From assembly GCA_017414565.1 (NCBI GenBank), contig JAFQLP010000026.1, positions 1 to 32,744 of the forward strand: a DNA stretch of 32,744 nt, read 5' to 3'. This document shows, piece by piece, positions 8,338-32,744 of this stretch (position 1 is the stretch's first letter; the number at the start of each line of letters is the position of its first letter). The notes below the pieces were generated by a model. It was given only the letters and a program-made list of their open reading frames with translations, was not told the DNA's origin and ran no database searches. The position numbers were made by a program, and so were the translations under genes. Source of the stretch: Lentisphaeria bacterium (GTDB lineage Bacteria > Verrucomicrobiota > Lentisphaeria > Victivallales > Victivallaceae).

Positions 8338-11310
8338 TCAGATGTGATCCAGCGTGGTCTTGTAAGACTTGACCAACGCGTCGACACCGATGGAGGCTTC
8401 CACAACGGCACCGTCATCTTCCGCCGTCCAGGCCAGCACCGGTTCTCCGGTAACGACCCCGACTCTGGCAAAGGGGACCCCGGCCAGTTTCGCTTCAAAC
8501 GCAGCCGCATCGGATTCGCGCACCGTGGCAACAAAGCGGCTGTTGGATTCAGAGAAGAGCAGTTTCCGGACCGTCAGACCGTTCTGGATCGCCCGCAGAT
8601 CAAGTTTGGCACCGAGCCGGCCGGCAACCGCCATTTTGGCAAATGCCACACCGAGCCCGCCCAACGCCGGGGTATGCAGAGCCGTGACCAATTCGGCACG
8701 GGTGGCTTCGGAGACCGCCTGATAGATCTGCAACGCTTTGTCCGCATCGACCCGCGGCACATTGCTGCCGATGGCATTGAACATGGCATAGTATTCGGAG
8801 CCGCCGAGTTCATCCAGCGTTTCACCGATCACATAAATGACCTCGCCCGGACGTTTGAAATCAAGCGTCAACGCCTTGGAAACATCGTCCATTTTGGAAA
8901 TGGCACTCAACAGGACCGTCGGCGGAATGGAGATCTTGCGGCCGCCGCGGGTGCTGTCGTTTTTCATGGAGTCTTTGCCGGAGATCAGCGGCACCCGGAA
9001 TTTCTTGGTGAAATCGTAAAGCCCCTGATTGGCCCGCACCAACTGCGCCAGTTTGTATTCCCCGTCGGGGGTCTTGGCACTCTGCACCGGGTCCGGCCAG
9101 CAGAAGTTGTCCAGCCCGGCGATGTGACCGAGACTGCCGCCGACCGCAATGATCCGGCGGATGGCAAGATCCAGCACCGAAGCCGCCATCCAGTAGGTGT
9201 CGATATCGCTGTAACGCGGCAGGATACCGCTGGAAAGCACCACACCTTCGGTCGCCAGCGGCCCGATCATGGTCACGGTGGCATCGGAGGCAACGTCCCG
9301 GCATTTGCCGATGAACGGTTTGATCACGCTCAAGCCCTTGACCTCGTGGTCGTACTGGCGGGCCTTGTATTCGTCGGAACAGATGTTGAGCCGCCCCACC
9401 ATGGCCACCAGGTCGGCGGCGACATCGGTGGTGATGACCGGTTCTTCAAACTGCGGCGCACGCCACGCGGCCTTCAGGTGCATTTTCGGCAGACCGCTGT
9501 GCATGAATTCAATGGAGAGCCGGGCCACCGTCTTGCCATTGTAAAGCACATGGAAGAAACCGTCATCGGTGAATTCGCCCAAGATGCTCACTTCCACATC
9601 CCGCGCGGCGGCCAACGCCAGGAATTCCTCTTTCTTTTCCGGCGGCACGGCAAAACTCATCCGTTCCTGCGCCTCGGAAACCAGAATTTCCCACGGGTCC
9701 AGACCGCTGTATTTGAGCGGCGCGGCACCGAGTTCCAGACGGCAGCCATTGCAGAGTTCGGACATTTCGCCGACGCTGGAGGAAAGACCGCCCGCGCCAT
9801 TGTCCGTGATAAAGCGGTACAGGCCGCGCTGACGCGCCTCGTGGATGAAGTCGCCCAGTTTCTTCTGGGTGATCGGGTCCCCGATCTGGACCGCCTGCAC
9901 CGGGCTGTCCTGATGCAGTTCTTCGCTGGAAAAGGTGGCACCGTGGATACCGTCTTTGCCGATCCGGCCGCCGCCCATCACGATCAGGTCGCCGGGTTTG
10001 ATGCTCTTTTCAAAACCCTTCACATCGCCGATCTGACGCGGCAGCGTACCGACCGTACCGCAATAGATCAGGGGTTTGCCGATGTAGCGTTCATCGAAAT
10101 ATTCCCAGCCGTTGCCGTAGGGAATGCCGCTCTGGTTGCCGCCGTCGATCACGCCCTTGTGAACGCCGTCGCGAATGCGCCGCGGGTGCAGCAGACCTTC
10201 CGGCACATCTTCATCCGCCGTGAACGGCGAACCAAGACAGTAGCCCCAGACGTTGATCAGCAGATCCGCCCCCTGACCGGTCCCCATCGGGTCGCGGTTG
10301 ACACCGACGATACCGGTCATGGCACCGCCGTAGGGGTCCAGTGCGGAGGGACTGTTGTGGGTTTCCACCTTGTAGCAGATATCCACCTGGTCGTTGAAGG
10401 TGATGACCCCGGCGTTGTCGCTGAAGACCGAAACCAGGAAATCGACTTCTTCGGCAATTTCCCGGGTACTCTTTTTGATGAAGCTCTTGTAGCAGGAATC
10501 GACCGTGATGGAAGCACCCGTTTCCAGATCCTGATAATCGATCGTGGCACTGAAGATCTTGTGTTTGCAGTGTTCGCTCCAGGTCTGCGCCAGCACTTCC
10601 AGTTCCACATCGGTCGGCTGCGCCGAAAGCCCGTAGGCGGCGCGATCACCGGCGGTACGGAAATATTCCTGGATGACCTTCATTTCCTCCAGTGTCAGGG
10701 CCAGCGTCCGTTCCCGGCTGAGTTCCATGAGCGCGTCATCGGAAACCGCCAGATCGAAGGTCCGGACATTGCCGCCGGTCACACCGCTGATGACCGGCCG
10801 GTTCACCGGCACGCCCTGCACCAGTTCACTACCTTTCAGGATACGGACACTCTGGATCAGTTCGTTGGCCAGCAGTTTCCGCGCGATCGTTTCCACCTGT
10901 TCGCCGGAAAGATCACCGGACAGCATGTATTCGACCGAACTGTAAACCGCTTCATCATCCCGCAACGGACGGGCCAGGATATCGCCGACGGCGGATTTGG
11001 CCGAGCGGCCCACATTGTCCGTCACGCCCGGCCGGAACCCGACGGCGATCAGGAAATCGCAGGGTGCATCGGCTTCGCAGTTGGCCGAACAGGCATCCCC
11101 GGTGCGCCAGGACTGCAGAACCGGGTTGTAAAGCAGTTCCGCAATTTTTACCGCCTGGGCGGCATCCACATCCGCATCGACCGTGTAAACGTCGCGGGTA
11201 CGGATGGCGTTGACCTCGATTTTCAGAAAATCACGGATCTGTGCTTTTACGCTTTCTGCCCGGGAATCACGCCAGCGTGCCAGCGTGGCGATTTCAATCC
11301 GATGAATCAT
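8338..11310 (-). CDS. purL: Phosphoribosylformylglycinamidine synthase, PurS-PurL form without glutaminase domain
   Basis: A 990-residue enzyme of de novo purine synthesis, converting FGAR to FGAM with ATP. The N-terminal part contains PurS-like sequence (about 35-70, RDVYTVDADVDAAQAVKIAELLYNPVLQ, and about 85-160 with GFRPGVTDNVGRSAKSAVGD). Synthase motifs follow: TWSEHCKHK (243-251), ETHNSPSALDPYGGA (316-330) with GIVGVNRDPMGTGQGAD, and later GGSLGHIAGLDNFCWPDP and ISGKDSMKND. The chain ends at SIGVDALVKSYKTTLDHI, before any glutamine-amidotransferase domain (no nucleophile-elbow Cys or HPE-like motif), whereas large PurL proteins of about 1250-1300 residues carry it. A separate PurQ must supply ammonia from elsewhere in the genome. 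GGAAG lies 6 bases before the ATG on the - strand. Divergent from plsY. Confidence 0.95.
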   Translation of the reverse strand: MIHRIEIATLARWRDSRAESVKAQIRDFLKIEVNAIRTRDVYTVDADVDAAQAVKIAELLYNPVLQSWRTGDACSANCEADAPCDFLIAVGFRPGVTDNVGRSAKSAVGDILARPLRDDEAVYSSVEYMLSGDLSGEQVETIARKLLANELIQSVRILKGSELVQGVPVNRPVISGVTGGNVRTFDLAVSDDALMELSRERTLALTLEEMKVIQEYFRTAGDRAAYGLSAQPTDVELEVLAQTWSEHCKHKIFSATIDYQDLETGASITVDSCYKSFIKKSTREIAEEVDFLVSVFSDNAGVITFNDQVDICYKVETHNSPSALDPYGGAMTGIVGVNRDPMGTGQGADLLINVWGYCLGSPFTADEDVPEGLLHPRRIRDGVHKGVIDGGNQSGIPYGNGWEYFDERYIGKPLIYCGTVGTLPRQIGDVKGFEKSIKPGDLIVMGGGRIGKDGIHGATFSSEELHQDSPVQAVQIGDPITQKKLGDFIHEARQRGLYRFITDNGAGGLSSSVGEMSELCNGCRLELGAAPLKYSGLDPWEILVSEAQERMSFAVPPEKKEEFLALAAARDVEVSILGEFTDDGFFHVLYNGKTVARLSIEFMHSGLPKMHLKAAWRAPQFEEPVITTDVAADLVAMVGRLNICSDEYKARQYDHEVKGLSVIKPFIGKCRDVASDATVTMIGPLATEGVVLSSGILPRYSDIDTYWMAASVLDLAIRRIIAVGGSLGHIAGLDNFCWPDPVQSAKTPDGEYKLAQLVRANQGLYDFTKKFRVPLISGKDSMKNDSTRGGRKISIPPTVLLSAISKMDDVSKALTLDFKRPGEVIYVIGETLDELGGSEYYAMFNAIGSNVPRVDADKALQIYQAVSEATRAELVTALHTPALGGLGVAFAKMAVAGRLGAKLDLRAIQNGLTVRKLLFSESNSRFVATVRESDAAAFEAKLAGVPFARVGVVTGEPVLAWTAEDDGAVVEASIGVDALVKSYKTTLDHI

Positions 11311-21520: not shown

Positions 21521-22344
21521 TGCGGGATCCATCACCCATGACAGACACAAGCAAACAGGAACAGGATTCCTTTGCCGTTCTCAAGGAACTCTCGCGTGAC
21601 AGCGCGGGTGTCACCTATCTGGCGGAACAGCGTTCCTCCGGCCGCCGGGTCGCCGTCAAATTGCTGACGGTCGATCCGCAGACGGTGCGGTCGCAGTTCC
21701 GCCCGACAGTGGTTCTGGCATTGCTGATCCCGCTGGCGGCTGTCAGTTTCTGGCTGGGGACCCTGCATCGCGGCAAACCGGATGTGATCGAAGTGGCGGC
21801 CCAGCCGACGGAATTTCTGATGGAGCCGGAAAACGAAGCGGAAACCGTTGCGCCGGTGGGGCCCGCCACCCAGGACACCCTGCCGGAGAACCTGATGCGC
21901 GAAGCCCTGCAGCCGGAAGCCGCCAAGCACGCCAAACTGACCCATATCCCGCTGACAGGGACCCAGGTCAATTTTCTGGGCCGGGAGGCACCGAGCGAAG
22001 CCAGCATGGATCTGACCGATATGGAACCGGAAAAACCGGCCAAACCGGCGGCCCCTTCGTTCACCGATCCGGCCTTTTTCGCGGCGGCCAAAAACGGAGA
22101 TCTGACGGAACTGAAACGGTTGCTGGCAACCGGGATCGCCGTCAATGCCGAAGATTTGAGCGGCAACACCGCTCTGATGACGGCGGTTTTCAACCGTCAG
22201 CCGGAGGTGGTGCGCTATCTTCTGACGCTCCACCCGGATCTGACCCACAAAAACCGGTTCGGACAATCGGCGGCTGACTTTGCGGCCGGCCAGCCGGAAA
22301 TGGAAAAAATGCTGCAGGAAGCAGCTGCAAAAGCAAAGCCGTAA
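21520..22344 (+). CDS. Kinase N-lobe remnant / membrane helix / ankyrin repeat protein
   Basis: A 274-residue protein with an unusual build. Residues 18-60 (FAVLKELSRDSAGVTYLAEQ, GRRVAVKLLT, then RSQF) look like the first three strands of a Hanks-type Ser/Thr kinase: a degenerate nucleotide loop, V-x-Y-L-A-E, and VAVK with Lys47 at the beta-3 lysine. The rest of the kinase is missing. A single membrane helix follows (about 63-81, VVLALLIPLAAVSFWLGTL), then an acidic, Pro-rich linker, and at about 182-270 two or three ankyrin repeats (AAAKNGDLTELKRLLATGIAVNAEDLSGNTALMTAV, RQPEVVRYLL). ATG 21520 overlaps the previous stop (TGATG); ATG 21538 is an alternative start. Orientation suggests an external ankyrin domain. 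Function unknown; the kinase link is my inference. Confidence 0.7.
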   Translation: MRDPSPMTDTSKQEQDSFAVLKELSRDSAGVTYLAEQRSSGRRVAVKLLTVDPQTVRSQFRPTVVLALLIPLAAVSFWLGTLHRGKPDVIEVAAQPTEFLMEPENEAETVAPVGPATQDTLPENLMREALQPEAAKHAKLTHIPLTGTQVNFLGREAPSEASMDLTDMEPEKPAKPAAPSFTDPAFFAAAKNGDLTELKRLLATGIAVNAEDLSGNTALMTAVFNRQPEVVRYLLTLHPDLTHKNRFGQSAADFAAGQPEMEKMLQEAAAKAKP

Positions 22345-22345
22345 C

Positions 22346-23023
22346 ATGCGTATTTTTCAACATTTTCCGCAGAACCGTCCGGTGATATCGCCGTCATTGC
22401 TGGCGGCGGACTTCAGCTGTCTCGACAAATCGATCGCGAAGGTGGCGGATGCCGGGGCGGAATGGCTGCACTGGGATGTGATGGACGGACATTTTGTCCC
22501 CAACATTTCATTCGGGCTCCCGGTCATGGCAGCACTCCGTCCCGCTACGGATATCTTTTTTGATACCCACCTGATGATCTCGCATCCGGCGCGTTACGCG
22601 GCGGCATTCGCCCGGGCCGGAGCGGACCTGATCACCTTTCATATCGAGTCGGATGATGACCCGGCGGCCACGATCGACCGGATCCACAGCAATGGTGTGG
22701 CAGCGGGTTTGTCGCTCAAACCGGCCACGCCGGCCTCGGCGGTGCTGCCGTATCTGGACCGGATCGACCTGCTCCTGGTCATGACGGTGGAACCGGGCTT
22801 CGGCGGCCAGCGGTTCATGCCGGATCAACTGCGGAAAATTGCGGAATTGCGGCAGGCGATCGACGCCTCCGGACGCGCGATCCGGCTGGAAGTGGACGGC
22901 GGCATCGATGCCCGGACGGCCCCGCTGGTGCGGGCGGCCGGAGCGGATACACTGGTTGCCGGAACGGCGGTTTTTCAGGCTCCGCAAGGTCTGAAAAAAG
23001 CCATCAGGGACTTGCGGTCATGA
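22346..23023 (+). CDS. rpe: Ribulose-phosphate 3-epimerase
   Basis: A 225-residue TIM-barrel enzyme that interconverts ribulose 5-phosphate and xylulose 5-phosphate in the pentose phosphate pathway. All metal and catalytic segments are present: ISPSLLAADFSCL, WLHWDVMDGHFVPNISFG (metal His and catalytic Asp), DTHLMISHP, FHIES, VMTVEPGFGGQRF, and EVDGGIDARTAP with the second catalytic Asp; GADTLVAGTAVF binds phosphate. The start ATG 22346 lies one base after the ankyrin gene stop. An upstream in-frame start would overlap that gene deeply. The stop overlaps the next gene by 4 bases. Confidence 0.97.
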   Translation: MRIFQHFPQNRPVISPSLLAADFSCLDKSIAKVADAGAEWLHWDVMDGHFVPNISFGLPVMAALRPATDIFFDTHLMISHPARYAAAFARAGADLITFHIESDDDPAATIDRIHSNGVAAGLSLKPATPASAVLPYLDRIDLLLVMTVEPGFGGQRFMPDQLRKIAELRQAIDASGRAIRLEVDGGIDARTAPLVRAAGADTLVAGTAVFQAPQGLKKAIRDLRS

Positions 23024-23646
23024 CCGGCTCTCCTGCCCGGCTGTCAGCGGTGACGCGGCAACGGCTGATCGTGATGGGGGCGTTGCTGATCGTGCTGTTG
23101 TCCGGTTGCGGCATGACATGGTACATGCTGCACATTTACCGGGAAAAACAGGTGGTGCGGCGGTTGAACCGCGCCCGCAGCATTCCGGCCCTGTCGCGGG
23201 CGTTGTACGACTACCGCGATGCCCGGGGAGAGATCTACGATGTGGCGCGTGTCCGCCTGATCGAAAAACTGATGGTGGCGCACCGTTACGACGAAGCGCG
23301 GGAACGGCTGCTGGAACTGGTCAATCTGGGCCGATCCGAAGAAGTCCGCAGTCACGCCCTGCTCAACATTGGTTTTGTGGGGATACAGGCGGGCGATCAC
23401 AACGGCGCATTCAAGCATTTTCTGGCACTTTTCCGGGATACGGAACAACCGGTACGGTTCCGTTTGCGGGCGGCGCAGGCGGCGGCGGAAATGGCCCTCA
23501 ATCAGAATGACCAGGCTTCCGCGATCCGGCTTTTCCAACTGATGCTGACTCTGCCGGAAGACGACGATGAATCGGAGGTCCTGCTCCGGGCGGCCCGGAC
23601 CTATCTGGAAGCGGTGGAGGCGGGGGCCTCGATCCCGGAAAAATAA
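23020..23646 (+). CDS. Membrane-anchored TPR-like protein of unknown function
   Basis: A 208-residue protein not recognised by name. Residues about 15-37 are hydrophobic (LIVMGALLIVLLSGCGMTWYMLHIY); they could be a membrane anchor, or a lipoprotein signal with lipobox LLSGC, although the residues after the Cys stay hydrophobic. The remainder is helical with TPR-like pairs: VRLIEKLMVAHRYDEARERLLELV, SHALLNIGFVGIQAGDHNGAFKHFLALF, and AAEMALNQNDQASAIRLFQLMLTLP. Proteins of this form act as scaffolds in the periplasm. It overlaps rpe by 4 bases and is the last gene of the dppA-like operon; no terminator with a U tract follows. Confidence 0.7.
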   Translation: MTGSPARLSAVTRQRLIVMGALLIVLLSGCGMTWYMLHIYREKQVVRRLNRARSIPALSRALYDYRDARGEIYDVARVRLIEKLMVAHRYDEARERLLELVNLGRSEEVRSHALLNIGFVGIQAGDHNGAFKHFLALFRDTEQPVRFRLRAAQAAAEMALNQNDQASAIRLFQLMLTLPEDDDESEVLLRAARTYLEAVEAGASIPEK

Positions 23647-23686
23647 CCGGCATCATCTTTTTCGCAAGGATTTTGCGAACTCCGGC

Positions 23687-23714
23687 TTGCAAGCTGCCGA
23701 TTTCCCGGTATAGT
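23687..23714 (+). promoter_or_regulatory. Promoter of the tRNA gene
   Basis: -35 TTGCAA (23687-23692), 16 bases, -10 TATAGT (23709-23714); the mature tRNA begins 18 bases after the -10 box. Confidence 0.8.
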
Positions 23715-23732
23715 AGTTGGAAGAAAAGCATT

Positions 23733-23809
23733 GGATCCGTAGCTCAGTCGGTTAGAGCAGGTGACTCATAATCTCCGGGTCCTCGGTTCAAGTCCGGGCG
23801 GATCCACCA
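23733..23809 (+). tRNA. tRNA with CAT anticodon (elongator Met, or Ile2)
   Basis: The 77-base cloverleaf is complete and includes an encoded CCA. Acceptor GGATCCG/CGGATCC (7 bp), D stem GCTC/GAGC, anticodon loop CTCATAA with CAT at 23767-23769, variable GGGTC, T arm CTCGG-TTCAAGT-CCGGG, discriminator A. The anticodon stem GGTGA/TCTCC has one T-T mismatch in the middle. A paired G1-C72 excludes the initiator. CAT is read as Met, or as Ile if modified to lysidine by TilS; the string AGCAG..GACTCATAATC resembles Ile2 tRNAs as I recall them, so both remain possible. A T-rich stretch follows directly. Confidence 0.93.
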
Positions 23810-24191
23810 TTTTTCTACCCCGATTCCTGACCTTATTTCCGGGTGGCTCGACCTCGAGATCATGTCTTTCCCGCGCTTCTCCTTTTTTCGTTTCCGGCTA
23901 TTATTTTCCCTTTTTTTGAACGCTCCAGGAATTCAAGGAAGATTGATCCAACGCGCCCCCCGTTGAAGCGGCTCAATCGACGGAAACAGATATTAACAAA
24001 GCCGCGGTAAATACTGAATTTCAAATCATAATCAATTGATAATAAATATAGTATATAATGTTAACATTTTGCGCCTCATGTTAACAATCAGATAAAGAAT
24101 CACGGCTGTCGGCGTTTCCTCAACCGCCTTTCGCACCGCCAGCCATTTCAAATGGCGTGGAGATGGAACCGTTCTGTTGCCACAGAAATAG
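23810..24191 (+). other. Non-coding boundary between core and accessory DNA
   Basis: About 380 bases with no credible gene. From left to right: pyrimidine-rich runs (23870-23920), the left copy of the AT-rich repeat (23953-24056), two ATGTTAACA boxes 20 bases apart (24058-24066 and 24078-24086), and a perfect palindrome GCCATTTCAAATGGC (24142-24156). The 253-bp repeat begins at 24192. Confidence 0.6.
23953..24056. repeat. Diverged AT-rich direct repeat, left copy
   Basis: Matches 28919-29024 in the same orientation at roughly three-quarters identity by eye. Shared anchors: six C followed by GTTGAAGCGGC, ACGGAAACAxATATTAACA, ATCAxAATCAATT and ATATAGTxATAT. The right copy lies upstream of the FG-GAP gene, partly in its promoter-distal region. 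The left copy has no matching gene beside it. Confidence 0.7.
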
Positions 24192-24444
24192 CGTTGCCTC
24201 AAGTGTGTCGGGAACGAGAGGGCAACTGGTGGCATGATCCCGCACAGACCGAACGGTGGACAGCCGCTCTTCTGTTGTCAGAAAATTGTCTGCTGCTCAC
24301 ATTCCGTTTGCGCCCGGCCAATGGATCGTTCAGGCGGAAATGACCTGAATTATCTCTTTTTCCGCGCGCCGCCTTACAGGATGCCGACACCTTTGGTGGA
24401 CCATTCGGCCCCCAGCGTGCCGCATTCGGTCCAGGCAGCAGAAT
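24192..24444. repeat. 253-bp direct repeat, left copy
   Basis: Identical to 26128-26380 (offset 1936) except at 24297 (T versus C) and one base near 24426 (C versus T). It opens with GTTGCC (24193-24198) that pairs with GGCAAC (24221-24226). Its right part (24374-24444) is the 3' end of an FG-GAP gene. Confidence 0.97.
24374..24444 (-). pseudogene. Orphan C-terminal tail of an FG-GAP protein
   Basis: Inside the left repeat, the - strand encodes the same last 23 residues and stop (TAA at 24374-24376) as the intact FG-GAP gene, with one change: Tyr to Cys in WTEYG. Beyond 24444 the frame runs into unrelated cassette DNA, so no gene body is attached. It is a remnant of a second gene copy or a duplicated end. 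Confidence 0.85.
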
Positions 24445-24475
24445 ACGGGCACGGGAGATCGGTCCGTTTCAGTGC

Positions 24476-24504
24476 TTGCAAGGCCCCCCATCAGGGGGTA
24501 TAGT
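24476..24504 (+). promoter_or_regulatory. Promoter of the sialidase-like gene with palindromic spacer
   Basis: -35 TTGCAA (24476-24481), 17 bases, -10 TATAGT (24499-24504). The spacer contains the perfect inverted repeat CCCCC-ATCA-GGGGG (24485-24498), centred between the two boxes, an ideal place for a repressor or a MerR-type activator. The leader to the ATG is about 75 bases. Confidence 0.75.
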
Positions 24505-24582
24505 AATTCACGACGCCTTGCACCGATTCGTTGGGGAAAAACGGTCCGGCGAGGGCCGGGCGCAACAAAAGGAGAGAGGAAC

Positions 24583-25761
24583 ATGGCCATACGACTGTCA
24601 TTCGGCGAACCGCGTATCGTCGCCCAGGGACCGACCTATGAACAGGCCGGCTGGGGCACGCACCAGTTCCCGGAAATCCGAAGACTGCCGGACGGAAGAC
24701 TGGCCGTCAGTTACCACATCGTTGCCGATACGACGGAGGCCTACGGCCTTGAACGCGGCTGGGCGACTTCGTCGGACGGCGGGCGGAGCTGGAGCGATGT
24801 CACGCCGGAGGAACTCCCGGCCGTCAAGGCGCGCTTCGGCACCCGCCTTCCCTCCGGCAGGAATCTGCGCTTCATCATGCCGAAGCCGTATCCGATCAGT
24901 CCCGAACTCCATGCCAAGCTGACGAAAATCGTCGGGCGGGGGAAAAACTGCATCGCCATGGAAGATGTGCCGGACGGTCTCTTTCCCAAAACCTGGCTCT
25001 TTGCCGTTTCCGGCCCCGAAACGCTGGAAGAGGAGCAGTATTACTGCGATCTGGATTTCCCCGGCATGACGACGGGGCTGACGACCGGCGCCATCATCCG
25101 CCCCTGTCCGTTCGGCGCCATGAAGGTGGCCCCGGACGGCAGCGTATGGATCGCCAGATACGCCAACGGCCGCAATCCCGTCAATATGGGTTATACGGGC
25201 TTCTACGCCTGTTACTATTTCCGCTCGACGGACGAGGGACGCTCTTTCCGGCTTATGAGCTGGATTCAATACCTCCCCGACACGAACGATTTTCCGGAGG
25301 CGTTCCTTACGGAAGGTTTTTGCGAACCCGACATCTGCTGGATGCCGGACGGAAGCATGATCACCGTCATGCGCACCGGCAGTTTCACCCCCAGTTATAT
25401 CGCCCGTTCGACGGACGGCGGCAGAACCTGGTCGAAGCCCGAACGTTTCGACGATTTCGGCGTGTATCCGCAGCTTCTCCATCTGAAATGCGGCGTCACG
25501 CTCTGCAGTTACGGCAGACCGGCGCTGCGGGTGCGCGCCACCCGGGACCCGTCCGGCATGAAGTGGGAAGAGCCCTGCGAATTGATGCCGTCGCTTTACG
25601 GCAAACAGGAACCGTGGGCGCGGAGCTGCTTTTACACCGGGCTGCTCCCTCTCGACGACGATACCGCCATGCTGGTCTTCACCGATTTCCAGATCCCGGA
25701 CAAAAACGGCGTCAAAAGAAAGACCGTTATGGTCCGCACCGTTCATGCGGAATGCCATTGA
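24583..25761 (+). CDS. BNR/Asp-box sialidase-like beta-propeller protein
   Basis: A 392-residue protein with at least three Asp-box motifs of the BNR type: SSDGGRSW (63-70), STDEGRSF (215-222) and STDGGRTW (276-283), plus propeller strand patterns such as FPEIRRLPDGRLAVSYHI and EPDICWMPDGSMITVMRTG. This is the six-bladed propeller fold of exo-sialidases and related glycan-binding or hydrolytic proteins. No signal peptide is present, so it would act inside the cell on imported sugars. The catalytic Arg triad and Tyr/Glu of true sialidases cannot be assigned with confidence. AAAGGAGAGAGG precedes the ATG. It has its own promoter and is the only intact gene in a cassette bracketed by the 253-bp repeats, which points to recent insertion. 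Confidence 0.85.
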   Translation: MAIRLSFGEPRIVAQGPTYEQAGWGTHQFPEIRRLPDGRLAVSYHIVADTTEAYGLERGWATSSDGGRSWSDVTPEELPAVKARFGTRLPSGRNLRFIMPKPYPISPELHAKLTKIVGRGKNCIAMEDVPDGLFPKTWLFAVSGPETLEEEQYYCDLDFPGMTTGLTTGAIIRPCPFGAMKVAPDGSVWIARYANGRNPVNMGYTGFYACYYFRSTDEGRSFRLMSWIQYLPDTNDFPEAFLTEGFCEPDICWMPDGSMITVMRTGSFTPSYIARSTDGGRTWSKPERFDDFGVYPQLLHLKCGVTLCSYGRPALRVRATRDPSGMKWEEPCELMPSLYGKQEPWARSCFYTGLLPLDDDTAMLVFTDFQIPDKNGVKRKTVMVRTVHAECH

Positions 25762-25955
25762 ACGTTTGAAAGCGGCAGACACGCCCGGCGCCGGAAGGCC
25801 GCTTCCGCGCGTCCATAAGAGCGTTCGGCAGCGTGCTGTCATGGGGCGCGGCGGGGCACTCGTCGCCGCAGAAGGCCCCATCGGCGACCTATCCGTTTAA
25901 AAAAGAGAAAAACAGGGAAAAACAGGAAAGAGGAAGGAACCGGCAGGACCGCCAC
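25762..25955. other. Non-coding tail of the cassette
   Basis: About 190 bases after the sialidase-like gene. It contains a purine-rich A/G run (about 25897-25937) and no convincing gene or terminator. Confidence 0.5.
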
Positions 25956-26009
25956 GCGGATGTCCGTTACGTCGCCGTCATCCCAGCATGGCACGATCCG
26001 GAGCATCAT
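25956..26009 (-). pseudogene. N-terminal fragment of a polysaccharide deacetylase-like gene
   Basis: From the ATG-ATG at 26004-26009 the - strand reads MMLRIVPCWDDGDVTDIRVA, the start of a NodB-type deacetylase (the W-DDG-x-x-x-D strand). Similarity is lost after about 18 codons; the frame then continues through low-complexity sequence to a stop at 25839. Its start overlaps the stop of the fragment to its right (AATGATG), as in an operon. The assignment rests on a short motif. Confidence 0.45.
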
Positions 26010-26128
26010 TTCGCCTCCGCGCAGCGGCCCGCCATGATCCCCGCGAGCGTGGCGTCGGCGGCGGAGTAAATGTCCCTCGGGGCGGGTTCGCCGGTCAGGA
26101 ATTCGCGGGCGAAGCAGTAGAGTTCCCC
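26006..26128 (-). pseudogene. C-terminal fragment of a Gfo/Idh/MocA-like oxidoreductase
   Basis: On the - strand the 40 codons ending at TGA 26006-26008 read GELYCFAREFLTGEPAPRDI and then YSAADATLAGIMAGRCAEAK, the pattern of the final helix and tail of Gfo/Idh/MocA sugar oxidoreductases. Homology stops exactly at the border of the 253-bp repeat, where upstream codons soon hit a stop. So the gene was cut by the event that created this junction. The family call is tentative; the truncation at the repeat edge is plain. Confidence 0.5.
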
Positions 26129-26380
26129 GTTGCCTCAAGTGTGTCGGGAACGAGAGGGCAACTGGTGGCATGATCCCGCACAGACCGAACGGTGGACAGC
26201 CGCTCTTCTGTTGTCAGAAAATTGTCTGCTGCCCACATTCCGTTTGCGCCCGGCCAATGGATCGTTCAGGCGGAAATGACCTGAATTATCTCTTTTTCCG
26301 CGCGCCGCCTTACAGGATGCCGACACCTTTGGTGGACCATTCGGCCCCCAGCGTGCCGTATTCGGTCCAGGCAGCAGAAT
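26128..26380. repeat. 253-bp direct repeat, right copy
   Basis: Second copy of 24192-24444. Bases 26310-26380 are the authentic 3' end of the intact FG-GAP gene; 26128-26309 is its downstream flank. Confidence 0.97.
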
Positions 26381-28787
26381 CCGGTCCGGTGATCAGAGCC
26401 GCACCGACCACACCGCCCGCCGTGCGGAAAAGCAAATCGTCCCGGCCGTCGCCGTTGCAATCGGCAATATCCTGCACCTCCGCATCGAAATTACCCAGAC
26501 CGCAAAAGCCGATCACGCCCCCTGCGCCGCAGAGCCATGCACCATAAAAATCCCTGCCGATCCGGAAAGCGATATCATCGGTACCGTCACCGTTGAAATC
26601 GCCGGAACCGACGATACCGGCAGTGCCGTTGAGGGTGCCGAGATCGCCCCAGGTAATGGAGCCATCTTGCCCCATGAGATACGCGCCGACATAACCCGCT
26701 TCGTGGGCAATGATGATGTCGTCGCAGCCGTTACCGTCAACATCGCCGAGCGCGGCCACAGACCATTCATCACCGAGCCCCTGCACCGCCGCAAAAGTAC
26801 CATTCGCATAATAGCCGACAAAACCCTCCGCCGTGCGGAGCAAAAGATCGGAAACCCCATCCGCATTGAAGTCGGCCAGCCCGATCTGCCGCAACGCAGT
26901 TCCGCCGGAATAGATCGATTCAAAGCCGATAACAGCTCCGGTATCGTCGGTGATGTACGCGCCGACAAATCCGGCTTCGGCATTGTAAACAAAAATATCG
27001 GCCACCGCTTCAATGGAAGTGGTGTACCCCTGACCGAGGATCGCAAAACCCGCACTGAGTGTCGAAAGATCCTGCCATTCCACGGTGGCGGTACTTGGTG
27101 TCTTCCATCCGCCGGTGGCTCCGAAATACGCATGATCCGGATCGGCGATCGTAAGAATGACGGGGAAAATGAACGCCCCGTCGCGGATGTATTCGAGCAT
27201 CTCCTGCCGGAACCACGGGGTGGTGGCAATGCTCCAGTCGCCGCTCTCATCGCAGACGGCGATCACAGGATCGTGGGCGCGGGCGGCAAAACCGGTGGCC
27301 TCCTCTTCCGGCCAGCGGGCCTGATATTCAGCGTAAACCTCCGGATAGCGGGAAATGTATTCAGCGTAGTAATAATACAGCAGATAACAGTTGCCGCCGC
27401 GATCGAGCGTGGTTTTCTGGTACCAGTTTGAATAGGGGTTGTAGCCGGGCGTGACAACATCCTGCCGGACACTCCATTCATCGCTGCCGGCATCTTTTTC
27501 GTAATAGACCAGCGCGTAATTGATGTAGGTCCCCTGCTGGGAGGTGTCGTAAGGGCTGCCGGAATCGATCGCCTGAATATCGGTACTGCGGCCGCGGGCA
27601 ACGAGATGGAGCGTGTCGTTGGCATCGATGGAAAACGCGGGATAGGTCAGTCCGTCGCGGCTCCAGTTGTTGTTCTGCCCGCCGCCGATGGCCTCCGGCG
27701 CGGTGAAGCCGTCGGAAATGCTCAACGGCGTATTCGAGCGGAGATACATGAAACTGTTCCAATGCGCCCCGCAGACGATATGAAGATACCCCTGGGAATC
27801 AACATCGATGACCGGCAGGTTGTGGCCGTCAACGGCGGTCCCGGTGGTGCAGAGGAAAACCGGGTCCGAAACACGCCCGGTGGTGTGATCGTATTCCACG
27901 ATGTAGTGCGGGGAACCGTCATCGCCCTCAATGCCGTTCTGCGACATGAAGACGACAAAGGTTTTGTTGCCGCGGGTAATCATCATGGAACCGTCGCCCG
28001 CCATCGTTGAAATGTTGACGACCGGCTTCCATGAACTGTCGATGACCTTTACCGCCGCATCAAGCGAAATCCCGCCGTCAGCCGTGGTCCGGAGCGGCAC
28101 GATATAGTAGTTGGAAGAACCGTCGCGCACCAGCATCTGCGGGGTGCGCGGATCGGCATTCGGCCGCCACGGTTCCAGCCGCGCATCATTGTACGGCACA
28201 TTGACAGCGGTAAAGGTCTGAAAACCATCGGCGGAATAAACAAGATGGCGGCGAAGCACCTGCCGCCCGTTGACCGTGGCGTTGGAAATGACCAGCGTGT
28301 AAGCCCCGCCATCGGAGTCGAATTCGACCGCATCCGGGGTGCGTTCTCCGAAACAGACCGGAATGTCGGCATCTTCCGCCAGTCCCAGCGCGCGGGCGAC
28401 CGCCCGGACATGGCCGTCGGTGACATGCCAGCGGCCGTCATCGCCGAGATACTGGATCAGATTGACGGTGCCGTAGTCGCGGGTGGTGACGGTGTGACCG
28501 TTTTCGCCGAGATACGAAGAATCCGCCAGCCCGATCCGCATCACCGGCCGGTTATCCGGCGAAAAAGTGATCATGCCGGGAAGAAAACGCGGATCGTATC
28601 CGAGCATCTCCCGCTCCCGGGAAAAGGCGGAAAGGTAATGGATCGGCAGAGCGGCATCGCCAGTCAGTTCATCCTGCCCCCGGTCCCACGGGGAAAGGTC
28701 GCCGGAAAAGCCGGCCGCCGCCAACCCGAATTCATCGTCTGAACAGATCAACGCCCCGGACTCTGCCAACCCCAAAACCTGTGTCAT
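26310..28787 (-). CDS. BNR-4 propeller protein with C-terminal FG-GAP (VCBS-type) repeats
   Basis: An 825-residue protein starting at ATG 28785-28787, preceded by AGGAG; a longer frame to 28829 has no such site. Residues about 70-480 resemble the BNR_4 propeller (GHTVTTRDYGTVNLIQYL, GAHWNSFMYLRSNTPLSI, NNWSRDGLTYPAFSIDANDTLHLVARGR). From about 595 come FG-GAP repeats with calcium-type loops: DFNADGVSD, DVDGNGCDD, DFNGDGTDD and DCNGDGRDD, each followed by a GxxGAxL strand. Such proteins bind or cleave polysaccharides, usually outside the cell, yet no signal peptide is visible. An N-terminus of MTQVLGLAESGALICSDDEF suggests that the original start may have been lost, or that export is non-classical. 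The 3' end is duplicated at 24374-24444. Confidence 0.8.
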   Translation of the reverse strand: MTQVLGLAESGALICSDDEFGLAAAGFSGDLSPWDRGQDELTGDAALPIHYLSAFSREREMLGYDPRFLPGMITFSPDNRPVMRIGLADSSYLGENGHTVTTRDYGTVNLIQYLGDDGRWHVTDGHVRAVARALGLAEDADIPVCFGERTPDAVEFDSDGGAYTLVISNATVNGRQVLRRHLVYSADGFQTFTAVNVPYNDARLEPWRPNADPRTPQMLVRDGSSNYYIVPLRTTADGGISLDAAVKVIDSSWKPVVNISTMAGDGSMMITRGNKTFVVFMSQNGIEGDDGSPHYIVEYDHTTGRVSDPVFLCTTGTAVDGHNLPVIDVDSQGYLHIVCGAHWNSFMYLRSNTPLSISDGFTAPEAIGGGQNNNWSRDGLTYPAFSIDANDTLHLVARGRSTDIQAIDSGSPYDTSQQGTYINYALVYYEKDAGSDEWSVRQDVVTPGYNPYSNWYQKTTLDRGGNCYLLYYYYAEYISRYPEVYAEYQARWPEEEATGFAARAHDPVIAVCDESGDWSIATTPWFRQEMLEYIRDGAFIFPVILTIADPDHAYFGATGGWKTPSTATVEWQDLSTLSAGFAILGQGYTTSIEAVADIFVYNAEAGFVGAYITDDTGAVIGFESIYSGGTALRQIGLADFNADGVSDLLLRTAEGFVGYYANGTFAAVQGLGDEWSVAALGDVDGNGCDDIIIAHEAGYVGAYLMGQDGSITWGDLGTLNGTAGIVGSGDFNGDGTDDIAFRIGRDFYGAWLCGAGGVIGFCGLGNFDAEVQDIADCNGDGRDDLLFRTAGGVVGAALITGPDSAAWTEYGTLGAEWSTKGVGIL

Positions 28788-28844
28788 GTCTTCATCTCCT
28801 GCTTGCGTACACAGCGGATGCGCCGCCATTCCCCGTTTTTATTA

Positions 28845-28873
28845 AAGATACACACATCCGGAAGATTTTGCAA
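28845..28873 (-). promoter_or_regulatory. Promoter of the FG-GAP gene
   Basis: On the - strand, -35 TTGCAA (28868-28873), 17 bases, -10 TATCTT (28845-28850). The leader is about 55 bases and ends in AGGAG before the ATG. Just upstream is a CGGCGG/CCGCCG hairpin with a seven-base A/T loop (28890-28908). Confidence 0.7.
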
Positions 28874-28918
28874 GAGTATCCGGCCCATCCGGCGGAAAAA
28901 AACCGCCGCCAAACAACC

Positions 28919-29024
28919 GTGCCCCCCTGTTGAAGCGGCGTTATTAACGGAAACAAATATTAACACAGCAACAATGAATATAACATTTTAAAATCACAAT
29001 CAATTTATAATCATATAGTTATAT
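28919..29024. repeat. Diverged AT-rich direct repeat, right copy
   Basis: Counterpart of 23953-24056. It lies between the FG-GAP promoter and the end of the next - strand gene, whose last codons (29019-29024) it covers. Confidence 0.7.
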
Positions 29025-31340
29025 CGCACAAATATGCTGATCACACAATTCATGTGCGGACGCTGGAGCACTGCTGTCGGAGTTGTCATAATAAACTTCC
29101 AGCCGGGAAATGGAAAAGACACATTGTTGATCTTTCGCCGTCCTGACCGTAAATGTAAAATTAAAATCAGCAACATTATCCACGTTTACAACCAACTGAT
29201 CCTCTATTTCACACATAGAGCCACTGCCATGAAGTTTATTCGACTTATCTCTGAATTCCCACTTGCCATCACCACGGATATCTGCGAAAAACACAACGAC
29301 TTTGGAAACTTTGCCCATGTGAAGCGGAACAAATTTCGGAAGCGGAAATATCTTTACTTCTCCTCCACTGTTGACTTTTACATTCAAACGGTGTGATTTC
29401 AAAGACGGCGAAACCAGTGCGTTCCGTTGCTGGGACCGAAGCAGAGAAGTTTTTTGAAAATCAAAAATAAATTGTTTCAGTGGCAATTTCCGGAACTTCG
29501 TGCCATCGCATTTATAAAGTGCAGCAAATTCTATGCCGCCCTCGAAATATTTACCGTACGTCTGAATAAATGCATCATTTAACGCAGCAATATAGCAATA
29601 GTCCGTATTTTTCAACAAATTCATTATCGAGGCATCGGAGTACCGGTGGCCGGATTGATTTTCGACTCCGTTTGCGGATATCCGCCATTGGGAGTCATAG
29701 TAATGGCTCTGCCAACGCATTCCCGCCACCCAATGATCAAAGTGAGCAGAGTTTGAAATGATTAAAAATTTTTTGTTTTCCACCAAGTACGGAGCAACCA
29801 CCTGATCCATAACCTCAAATCGTGTCATGCTCAGGTTCCTGATGGGCTCACAAGATTGAAACAAGTCTCTCCAACCGGGAATATTCAGTATGGGAACCAA
29901 CACCATACAGCAAACGATACCGGGAGTCTTGGTATCGCCGACTTCTGTCAGACACATCCCAACCGCAAACAAAAACATCCATTCAAAAATCATGTATGTT
30001 GCCATATAGCGATTAAGAGAGGCCAATCTGGCGGCTTCGACGGGAGCAAAAACAAAAACATAATAAACAAAAAGCGTGAAGCTGTAAACAAAAAAGCCAA
30101 CAAACAAAACCAGCGCAGAAATCTGCACAATACGTTTTCTTTGATCACGAAATAATGATGCCGAGAAAAATAAAGCCATACAGATGACAACGGTAAGCGT
30201 GAAATAAGACACCGGAACATCAAATTCCGACACTTTCGTATAGCATACGCTTTTGTACATGTTGGTCCAAATAGAGTGCAAACGGTCATGTCCCCAATAA
30301 GTAAAACCGTCAATCAATCCTTCAACCGATATTTTTTTCGAAGAAAAATTCTTTGGTATGTCAGCCAGAGATACCTTGTGGATGAACCGCAATAAAAAAG
30401 CGGCAACCGGAATAAAATAACGCAGATTACCGGACAGATCACTATAGCATTTGTGCGATATATTCCCGATAATCCGGTATATTCCGATAAATACAGGAAT
30501 TATCACAACAAATATGGCAAGTCCGCTTCCGGAATCTTTTGTCAAAATCAAAAAACCAAGCAAAATTGTCAACAATATGGAATTAAACCATGAAAAACGC
30601 TCATCATCTATAATGAGAAAATAAGCTCCCCCCATAATCAGCCCGAGCAGAGTATCAACATACACTGTCCGGAGAAAATTCGGAAAAAAACTGCCGCAGA
30701 CAAGTAATCCTGACAGAACAAAAAGGAAAGCAGCCCATGCATTCTTCCAAGTTGCTTTGACTGTCATCAACAGCAATACTGCAATCTCGGTGGTTGCCAT
30801 GGCGAACATGGCCGCACTTTCAGACAGTTGCGAAGCATCAAAGTGTCGCGCAAACATGTACTCAATAATGGATGTCCCGACGGGATAACTTTTGAAAGAT
30901 ATTATCTCCAATACCCGCGAATCAGTCACCGGAAGCACATTATTGAAAAAAATCGCATAGACGATTCTGCCCCAGTGAGAAAACTCGTCCCAAAGGGAAA
31001 AACACCTTCCCTCGCAAACAAAGTTCGCAAAAAAAATTCCGATGACAAAAAGCACACAGCCGGGGGTCACGATCTGGTCGATGGCAAGACGGCAATATTC
31101 AGATATTTTACCTCTCTTTATCCCGAAACAGACGATTCCCCCCCCCACCGGCAACATCAACCATATAGCAGCCACAATAGCACAATATGTAAAATCAAGT
31201 ACCCGGCAAATTCCGCCCAAATATAATAAAATCCCCCAAAAAGGCAGAATACCCCCAATAAAATACTCGATGCGCCTCCGCAAAACAAAACTCAAAAAAG
31301 CAGACGGCAAAAGCACAAAAAATAAGGCTGTGATGATCAT
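29019..31340 (-). CDS. GT-C-type polytopic membrane glycosyltransferase-like protein
   Basis: A 773-residue inner-membrane protein with about twelve hydrophobic segments in its first 490 residues and a soluble tail of about 280. The first large external loop has FSLWDEFSHWGRIVYAIFFNN with an acidic pair, and further on FKSYPVGTSIIEYMF, a pair of motifs I associate with GT-C enzymes that use polyprenyl-linked sugars. The tail ends in a beta-rich segment (VVFFADIRGDGKWEFRDKS...FSISRLEVYYDN) likely to be periplasmic. GGAGGG precedes the ATG. It follows the GtrB-GtrA fusion by 15 bases and probably uses the sugar that protein supplies. Base composition is clearly AT-richer than the core genes, which suggests transfer. 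The exact substrate is unknown. Confidence 0.65.
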   Translation of the reverse strand: MIITALFFVLLPSAFLSFVLRRRIEYFIGGILPFWGILLYLGGICRVLDFTYCAIVAAIWLMLPVGGGIVCFGIKRGKISEYCRLAIDQIVTPGCVLFVIGIFFANFVCEGRCFSLWDEFSHWGRIVYAIFFNNVLPVTDSRVLEIISFKSYPVGTSIIEYMFARHFDASQLSESAAMFAMATTEIAVLLLMTVKATWKNAWAAFLFVLSGLLVCGSFFPNFLRTVYVDTLLGLIMGGAYFLIIDDERFSWFNSILLTILLGFLILTKDSGSGLAIFVVIIPVFIGIYRIIGNISHKCYSDLSGNLRYFIPVAAFLLRFIHKVSLADIPKNFSSKKISVEGLIDGFTYWGHDRLHSIWTNMYKSVCYTKVSEFDVPVSYFTLTVVICMALFFSASLFRDQRKRIVQISALVLFVGFFVYSFTLFVYYVFVFAPVEAARLASLNRYMATYMIFEWMFLFAVGMCLTEVGDTKTPGIVCCMVLVPILNIPGWRDLFQSCEPIRNLSMTRFEVMDQVVAPYLVENKKFLIISNSAHFDHWVAGMRWQSHYYDSQWRISANGVENQSGHRYSDASIMNLLKNTDYCYIAALNDAFIQTYGKYFEGGIEFAALYKCDGTKFRKLPLKQFIFDFQKTSLLRSQQRNALVSPSLKSHRLNVKVNSGGEVKIFPLPKFVPLHMGKVSKVVVFFADIRGDGKWEFRDKSNKLHGSGSMCEIEDQLVVNVDNVADFNFTFTVRTAKDQQCVFSISRLEVYYDNSDSSAPASAHELCDQHICAI

Positions 31341-31355
31341 GTACCCGCCCTCCGA

Positions 31356-32399
31356 TCAACGGTCCTGCCTGGCAAATATCCAAACTCTCTGTGCCAAAAA
31401 ACTCACGATGAACATGCCGACTTCAACAACAATTTTAGAAAACAGAGGCGACCAACCGAGATATTTTCTGGCAAAACTGATCCCCAAATACGAACCGGCA
31501 AAGAGCAGTACTGCCAATAATAAAAATTTTACCCCTTGGGTGAAAAAATGCCCCTTCCCATTGAACACTTTTTGGCGATTGATTACAAAATTCACCATAA
31601 CACTTATCACCCGCGAGATCACGAGACTCGATAAAACTGTACCATGAAGCAAAAAAAGCAACGAAAAGATAGCGTAATCTAAAACACTGCAAAACAATGA
31701 GGCTCCAATGAATCTGAAAAACACCATATATATGCGTATTGAATCCAACACTGGGTTAAAGTGGCTGCGTTTGTTGTTATCCTCATATATGGTTTTTATC
31801 TTTACCTGCTCAAGCGCAGACTTGTCTACCGCCAGCATAAGAGCTTCCAATTGAAACTCATACCGGCTGTGCAACAGCTGGGTAACCATTTCGGCGATTT
31901 TTCGAGGATAACAACGCAACCCGGTTTGCGTATCCGGAAGTTTCACGCCCGTAAATGCATAAAAAACCAACTCGGTCATCCGATTGCCGAAACGGCTGCG
32001 CAACGGAATATTTATTTCTGGAGAATAGAAATCGCGCACACCTAAAACTGTTTTGTCCGGCATTTCGGTAAAACATTCAACTATTTTTTTCACATCATCC
32101 GGGGCGTGTTGGCCATCGGCATCAAAAGTAACAACACCTTTACAGTCCGGATAGTGATAAAGTACATACTGTAAACCATACTTTATGGCACCGCCCGTAC
32201 CGCTGTTAACGGCCAAATGCAGCACTGTCACATTGTTATCGATTGACAAACCATTAAAAATATCATCGTATGATGCCCCACTGCCATCGTCAACAATGAC
32301 GATATGCTCAAGAAAATCAGCTTCGACTATCGCATGTACCGTTTCGGAAAGTTTGAAGTCCGGACGATAAGCAGGAACGATACCAACAACATTTTTCAT
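31356..32399 (-). CDS. GT2 polyprenyl-phosphate glycosyltransferase fused to GtrA-like membrane domain
   Basis: A 347-residue protein. Residues 1-225 are a DPM1/GtrB-like GT2 domain: VPAYRPDFKLSETVHAI, IVIVDDGSG, FDADGQHAPDD (metal site), and FTGVKLPDTQTGLRCYPRK. After SHFNPVLDSIRIYMVF come four membrane helices (about 226-347) of the GtrA type, ending VSFLAQRVWIFAR. GtrB charges undecaprenyl phosphate with a hexose and GtrA is thought to flip it; here both are in one chain. The start ATG 32397-32399 follows GAGGGGAA; a longer frame to 32501 lies across the leader. First gene of a two-gene AT-rich unit with the GT-C-like protein. Confidence 0.88.
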   Translation of the reverse strand: MKNVVGIVPAYRPDFKLSETVHAIVEADFLEHIVIVDDGSGASYDDIFNGLSIDNNVTVLHLAVNSGTGGAIKYGLQYVLYHYPDCKGVVTFDADGQHAPDDVKKIVECFTEMPDKTVLGVRDFYSPEINIPLRSRFGNRMTELVFYAFTGVKLPDTQTGLRCYPRKIAEMVTQLLHSRYEFQLEALMLAVDKSALEQVKIKTIYEDNNKRSHFNPVLDSIRIYMVFFRFIGASLFCSVLDYAIFSLLFLLHGTVLSSLVISRVISVMVNFVINRQKVFNGKGHFFTQGVKFLLLAVLLFAGSYLGISFARKYLGWSPLFSKIVVEVGMFIVSFLAQRVWIFARQDR

Positions 32400-32524
32400 T
32401 CTTTTATTCCCCTCTGTATAATAACGTGTTAAATGAAATTTTCCGAGCAGACTGGTGTGCCGGCCATCATATCGCCGCCAAACCGCACACTTAAAAAACA
32501 TTGTTTGACAGGAATCTGGGCGGC

Positions 32525-32575
32525 AAAAAAATAAAACAGCCGCAAAAAGCTCCCCACTCGCAGCTTTTGCGGCTG
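32525..32575 (-). terminator. Rho-independent terminator on the - strand
   Basis: CAGCCGCAAAAAGCT (32537-32551) pairs with AGCTTTTGCGGCTG (32562-32575), one bulged A, loop of ten. On the - strand the stem is followed by TTTTATTTTTTT (32536 down to 32525). It must end a transcript entering from the right edge. The 125 bases between it and the GT2-GtrA start form that operon's promoter region, although no good -35/-10 pair is visible. Confidence 0.85.
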
Positions 32576-32744
32576 AATAAATACAAAATTCCTGTTAACA
32601 GGGCACAAAACCCCTGCATCATCGAAAAGAAAGGAATTTATCCCGCGCAAATAATTTTGGCAACGGTCAAAATATAGGAATGCAAACTTCGGAATGAAGC
32701 AAGCCTTATATGAAAATATACGCAAAGCTCCCCGATCCGAACTC
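32576..32744 (-). other. Probable end of a - strand gene and its 3' leader
   Basis: The terminator at 32525-32575 implies a gene ending here or just outside. Two - strand frames stop in this stretch: one ends EFGSGSFAYIFI at TAA 32706-32708, the other ends VAKIICAG at TAA 32638-32640. I cannot say which is real. A 12-base palindrome CCTGTTAACAGG lies at 32591-32602. Confidence 0.3.

Follow-up and report, generated by a model that had tools for sequence, protein, structure and literature searches.

The window analysed here, the whole of a complete contig (C148) of 32,744 bp, belongs to a metagenome-derived Lentisphaeria genome of 2.01 Mb in 183 contigs that is 96% complete. It carries an intact gene for an FG-GAP protein and, beside it, a segment bracketed by two copies (R1 and R2) of a sequence that spans the 3' end of such a gene. 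From left to right, the features of this stretch are:

23733–23809, plus strand: tRNA-Met (CAT), found by ARAGORN, at the left edge of the rearranged stretch
24192–24444, minus strand: left repeat copy R1, the last 71 bp of an FG-GAP gene relic (24374–24444, including the stop codon) plus 182 bp of flank
24445–26127, no strand: inserted segment, 1683 bp, 61.7% G+C
24476–24504, plus strand: promoter-like site ahead of the BNR gene, a sigma-70-like sequence motif (TTGCAA-17-TATAGT)
24583–25761, plus strand: intact BNR_2 gene for a sialidase-like beta-propeller of 392 aa (Pfam domain; full length against its relatives)
25899–25947, minus-strand reading: pyrimidine-rich stretch, 92% identical to C116:9001–9050 over 50 bp
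about 25955–26008, minus strand: broken gene, the first 18 codons of a polysaccharide deacetylase (Polysacc_deac_1 relatives)
26009–26127, minus strand: broken gene, an internal 40-aa piece of a GFO_IDH_MocA-type protein of roughly 510 aa, assigned by homology
26128–26380, minus strand: right repeat copy R2, the 3' end and flank of the intact FG-GAP gene
26310–28829, minus strand: intact FG-GAP gene of 839 aa with a BNR_4 domain and C-terminal FG-GAP repeats (Pfam; stop codon 26310–26312)

Alignment of 24192–24444 with 26128–26380 reproduced, exactly to the base, a 253-bp direct repeat with two mismatches that had been described in an earlier note on this DNA. Identity stops sharply at either side, and the two differences between R1 and R2 fall at 24297/26233 (T/C) and 24423/26359 (C/T), the longest identical stretch being 125 bp and another 105 bp. 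As the same note had proposed, the repeat consists of the 3' end of the FG-GAP gene and its downstream flank, with 71 bp of coding sequence and 182 bp beyond. R1 carries a derived Tyr-to-Cys change at a position where the FG-GAP paralogues have Tyr, and by this comparison of sequences R1 is the relaxed copy.

In a census of repeats covering about 966 kb, roughly half of the 2.01-Mb genome, examined as stretches, this was the sole near-identical (≥98%) repeat longer than 200 bp that brackets unique DNA; other long near-identical pairs were mostly contig ends, tandem repeats or dispersed families. Because it is the only such pair in about 966 kb, the 253-bp repeat pair is far beyond chance.

Many genes in this genome have FG-GAP tails. 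A C-terminal module of about 270 aa occurs on proteins of varied size and N terminus (L131 in C60, L134 in C153, L135 in C44, L137 in C183 and L138 in C31), with DNA identity of 89–96% between some members (C60/C153 and C60/C44), and the family members in C44, C153, C183 and C31 reach contig ends. At another FG-GAP end, a recent duplication of 285 bp with 3 mismatches links L135 (C44) 8939–9223 to L269 (C73) 5–289. It comprises some 57 codons of an FAD oxidoreductase-like gene, intact in C73, together with the 5' region of that gene, and the copy in C44 abuts a PIG-L-like gene; this pair may be a patch, a deletion allele or the product of two strains.

Content and probable source of the inserted segment

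Between the repeat copies, the earlier note had read 1683 bp with a promoter, an intact BNR gene and two broken genes; all of these were recovered, and the broken genes now have names. The BNR_2 gene (24583–25761) has a Shine-Dalgarno-like AAGGAGAG, and the closest solved relatives of its protein are sialidases; the BNR_4 domain of the neighboring FG-GAP gene is also a sialidase-like propeller. On the minus strand, the oxidoreductase (GFO_IDH_MocA) piece, the deacetylase start and the pyrimidine-rich stretch follow one another in a row. Relatives of the oxidoreductase extend about 160 aa past the 40-aa fragment, and homology begins at the base adjoining R2, where the relatives read GGDFW-ELYYFAR and the window reads GELYCFAR directly after the repeat. 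Thus, the same joint bounds the repeat and breaks the gene, with no clear microhomology at this joint. Within the same genome, 24497–24550 is 85% identical over 54 bp to C127:22066–22119. The pyrimidine-rich stretch in C116 (L042 2870–3051) that resembles 25899–25947 is located some 60 bp from the 3' end of a tRNA gene, between what we take, by reading, to be V-type ATPase-like genes and a cas3-like helicase gene.

The genome, 96% complete, matches the BNR gene only once, at the gene itself, and the oxidoreductase piece likewise once. A scan of genome contigs with the BNR sequence gave no confirmed relative. With each in single copy, neither derives from a template that the binned genome still contains. 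A source elsewhere in this genome is disfavored, the only related stretches being those in C127 and C116 (85% and 92% over about 50 bp), and so is duplication of a larger tandem block followed by deletion, given that the BNR and oxidoreductase sequences have no second copy. Plasmid and phage records held no match to the insert or to the 1936-bp unit of insert and repeat, and a phage or plasmid origin was rejected on this basis. Even the nearest relatives are remote: those of the BNR gene, at 38–44% identity, were found in 7 of 149 genomes, and those of the oxidoreductase piece are 51–74% identical. The relatives found for the inserted genes belong to this family or order. The BNR gene has host-typical codon usage (51st percentile), with GC3 at the 97th percentile. 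The simplest reading of these comparisons is a donor outside this genome that is nevertheless related, probably a strain, or a relative from within the family or order. The label “foreign” that had been given to this DNA therefore holds insofar as the inserted genes match nothing else in the genome, but sits poorly with the host-typical codon usage and the relatives within the family or order.

Mobile-element signatures and assembly

The insert encodes the BNR gene and the two fragments only, with no transposase, and the ORFs tested between 19.1 and 32.7 kb include no mobile-element or integrase domain, in agreement with the earlier statement that neither transposase nor integrase was visible. 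No inverted repeats of at least 20 bp were found in 22000–29000 (shorter terminal ones fall outside this systematic search), and the duplication, at 253 bp, is not of the short target-site type. As for a tRNA-targeted integrative element, which would have a duplicated tRNA 3' end at its far boundary, the tRNA-Met at 23733–23809 is adjacent, the tested ORFs include no integrase, and ARAGORN found no second tRNA in the window, although that boundary may exceed the contig. A lone hairpin at the left repeat edge (24193–24226) was considered as an integron attC and rejected, with GTT on its outer 5' side, the reverse of attC; it was also rejected as an attachment site, its fold z-scores (−1.2 to +0.4) being no better than those of shuffles.

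Misassembly across a repeated gene family, or between strains, had been named as the main competing explanation. It draws some plausibility from the metagenomic derivation and 183 contigs of the genome and from the several FG-GAP members at contig ends (C44, C153, C183 and C31), a sign that the family troubles assembly. Contigs C10 and C172 share an overlap of exactly 141 bp, the only pair to do so among the 196 contig ends examined, and no exact repeat longer than 141 bp occurs in the 966 kb; together, these observations indicate a de Bruijn assembly ending at k = 141, which is the default final k of MEGAHIT. At most 125 bp are identical between the repeat copies, as against this k of 141, itself derived from one contig pair. 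All 2859 141-mers of 23901–26900 are unique in the pieces examined (about half of the genome), with seven k-mers still colliding at k = 119, so the joints would be supported by reads if k was 141, as that one pair suggests. Moreover, each copy retains its own base at both variable sites, and k-mer collapse does not explain the joint. On these sequence grounds, an assembly artefact appears quite improbable.

A probable insertion with duplication and its alternatives

The best reading, to which we assign a probability of about 0.6, is that DNA was inserted, recently and once, at the 3' end of the FG-GAP gene, with duplication of sequence there; this reading takes in the two outcomes originally suggested, a duplication that captured foreign DNA or the single crossover of a circle. 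The BNR gene and the two gene fragments, absent elsewhere in the genome, would have joined the chromosome at the FG-GAP 3' end through illegitimate or homology-assisted recombination, and joining would have resumed 253 bp back within that end, leaving these 253 bp on both sides. Candidate pathways are strand switching as taken-up DNA was repaired and a single crossover after the piece had circularised. We infer in which order the events took place, that the left flank is original, that the DNA came from outside and by which pathway exactly it entered. The duplication can be considered recent because R1 and R2 agree over 253 bp with two mismatches, and the main argument for one event rather than an unrelated pasted copy is that the oxidoreductase gene breaks off exactly at the edge of the repeat, as expected if one insertion made both joints. 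Weighing against insertion with duplication are the host-typical codon usage of the BNR gene and the insert stretches resembling C127 (85% over 54 bp) and C116 (92% over 50 bp), both of which make an outside origin less certain, an ancestral order unobserved among the relatives searched, and an oxidoreductase joint with no clear microhomology. The comparison with related genomes that had been proposed, with and without the 1936-bp unit, yielded neither state among 61 relatives: within the stretches examined, the epimerase gene is present, and neither the tRNA-Met nor the TPR-like gene adjoins it.

A 1.9-kb circle or concatemer carrying the insert together with the 253 bp, such as one from a conspecific strain, would yield exactly the order R-insert-R on recombining with the chromosome by a single homologous (Campbell-type) crossover, and a divergence of 0.8% between the copies is in keeping with two conspecific strains. 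We nevertheless consider this unlikely: to have R attached to the insert, such a circle must already contain at least one illegitimate joint, no gene for replication or mobilisation is present in the insert, and no plasmid or phage record contains it. Similarly unlikely, if not slightly more so, would be a history in which the BNR block has long stood beside the FG-GAP gene and the left 253-bp copy alone is recent, pasted 1.7 kb away. The comparable recent 285-bp patch at another FG-GAP end (C44/C73), the location of the derived change in R1 and the other fragments in the surrounding region all fit such a paste, but it would have to end by chance at the exact base where the oxidoreductase fragment breaks beside R2.

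Spread of the cassette by homologous recombination between FG-GAP gene ends, an idea that the earlier note found attractive, could draw on the high DNA similarity of some C-terminal modules (89–96% in C60/C153 and C60/C44). Yet the 253-bp sequence occurs at this locus only, both in the alignment of about half of the genome and in a search of the whole MAG, which also answers the proposed count of FG-GAP 3' ends bearing it. The other FG-GAP ends have 60–62 coding bp in common with the repeat, at 77–79% identity, the paralogues differ by more than 20% in its coding part, and the downstream flanks of the eight FG-GAP gene ends in the half of the genome examined, one of which is R1, all differ. 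With the BNR gene also in single copy, such spread is hardly tenable. It is a highly speculative notion, too, that ends of FG-GAP surface-protein genes in this Lentisphaeria lineage could be a hotspot at which pieces of 50–290 bp and whole genes of other origin repeatedly become attached through an undescribed patch-capture process, of which the 253-bp and the C44/C73 285-bp cases would be two recent products.

Several known processes resemble the insertion with duplication that we favor. As in Campbell-type insertion-duplication, sequence of the target itself is directly repeated around a foreign segment, here as copies of 253 bp that differ at 2 positions, as expected of a single crossover; unlike in that process, no circle, replicon or donor is seen, and one edge of the repeat coincides with a foreign gene cut short, so that an illegitimate joint is required. 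In homology-facilitated illegitimate recombination during transformation, one homologous anchor and an illegitimate joint add non-homologous DNA, an arrangement like the present one, but accounts of the process usually involve no direct repeat of the anchor, which here is duplicated. Template switching, or microhomology-mediated break-induced replication (the model of PMC2621351), has in common with this locus the complex joints, the duplication through upstream resumption and the run of short pieces from several genes, but under that model the copied templates should persist in the genome, and the BNR and oxidoreductase sequences are single-copy. Merodiploids formed by transformation carry tandem duplications of 100–900 kb between pre-existing repeats (PMC3784515), sharing with this locus a duplicated stretch bordered by repeats after DNA uptake and differing in that here 253 bp are doubled and the insert is single-copy. 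The insertion scar looks like a new instance of a known, ordinary kind of rearrangement rather than a mobile-cassette system.

Genomic surroundings and significance

A promoter-like element of about 105 bp, with copies 72–82% alike and the core GCCGCTTCAACAGGGG, occurs at 23952–24056, at 28918–29024 and at L046 1613–1725. The copy at 28918–29024 precedes the FG-GAP gene, the one at 23952–24056 is orphaned beside the left repeat, and that in L046 lies at a contig end. Next to the FG-GAP gene, 29019–32744 forms a block of 42% G+C with a GT2/GtrA-type glycosyltransferase and a 773-aa protein that has no Pfam match. The surrounding stretch looks like a variable region.

The closest named matches of the epimerase gene are gut MAGs of Lentisphaerae/Lentisphaeria (SIG84, and RGIG5364 from sheep colon), and these matches suggest that the host lineage comes from an animal gut.

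For metagenome-assembled genomes, comparison of the longest exact stretch of a repeat with the k derived from contig overlaps offers a cheap check of repeat-linked joins. For this organism, the locus provides a natural example of a single gene of glycan-degradation type added beside a surface-protein gene without a mobile element, marked by a short, dated scar.
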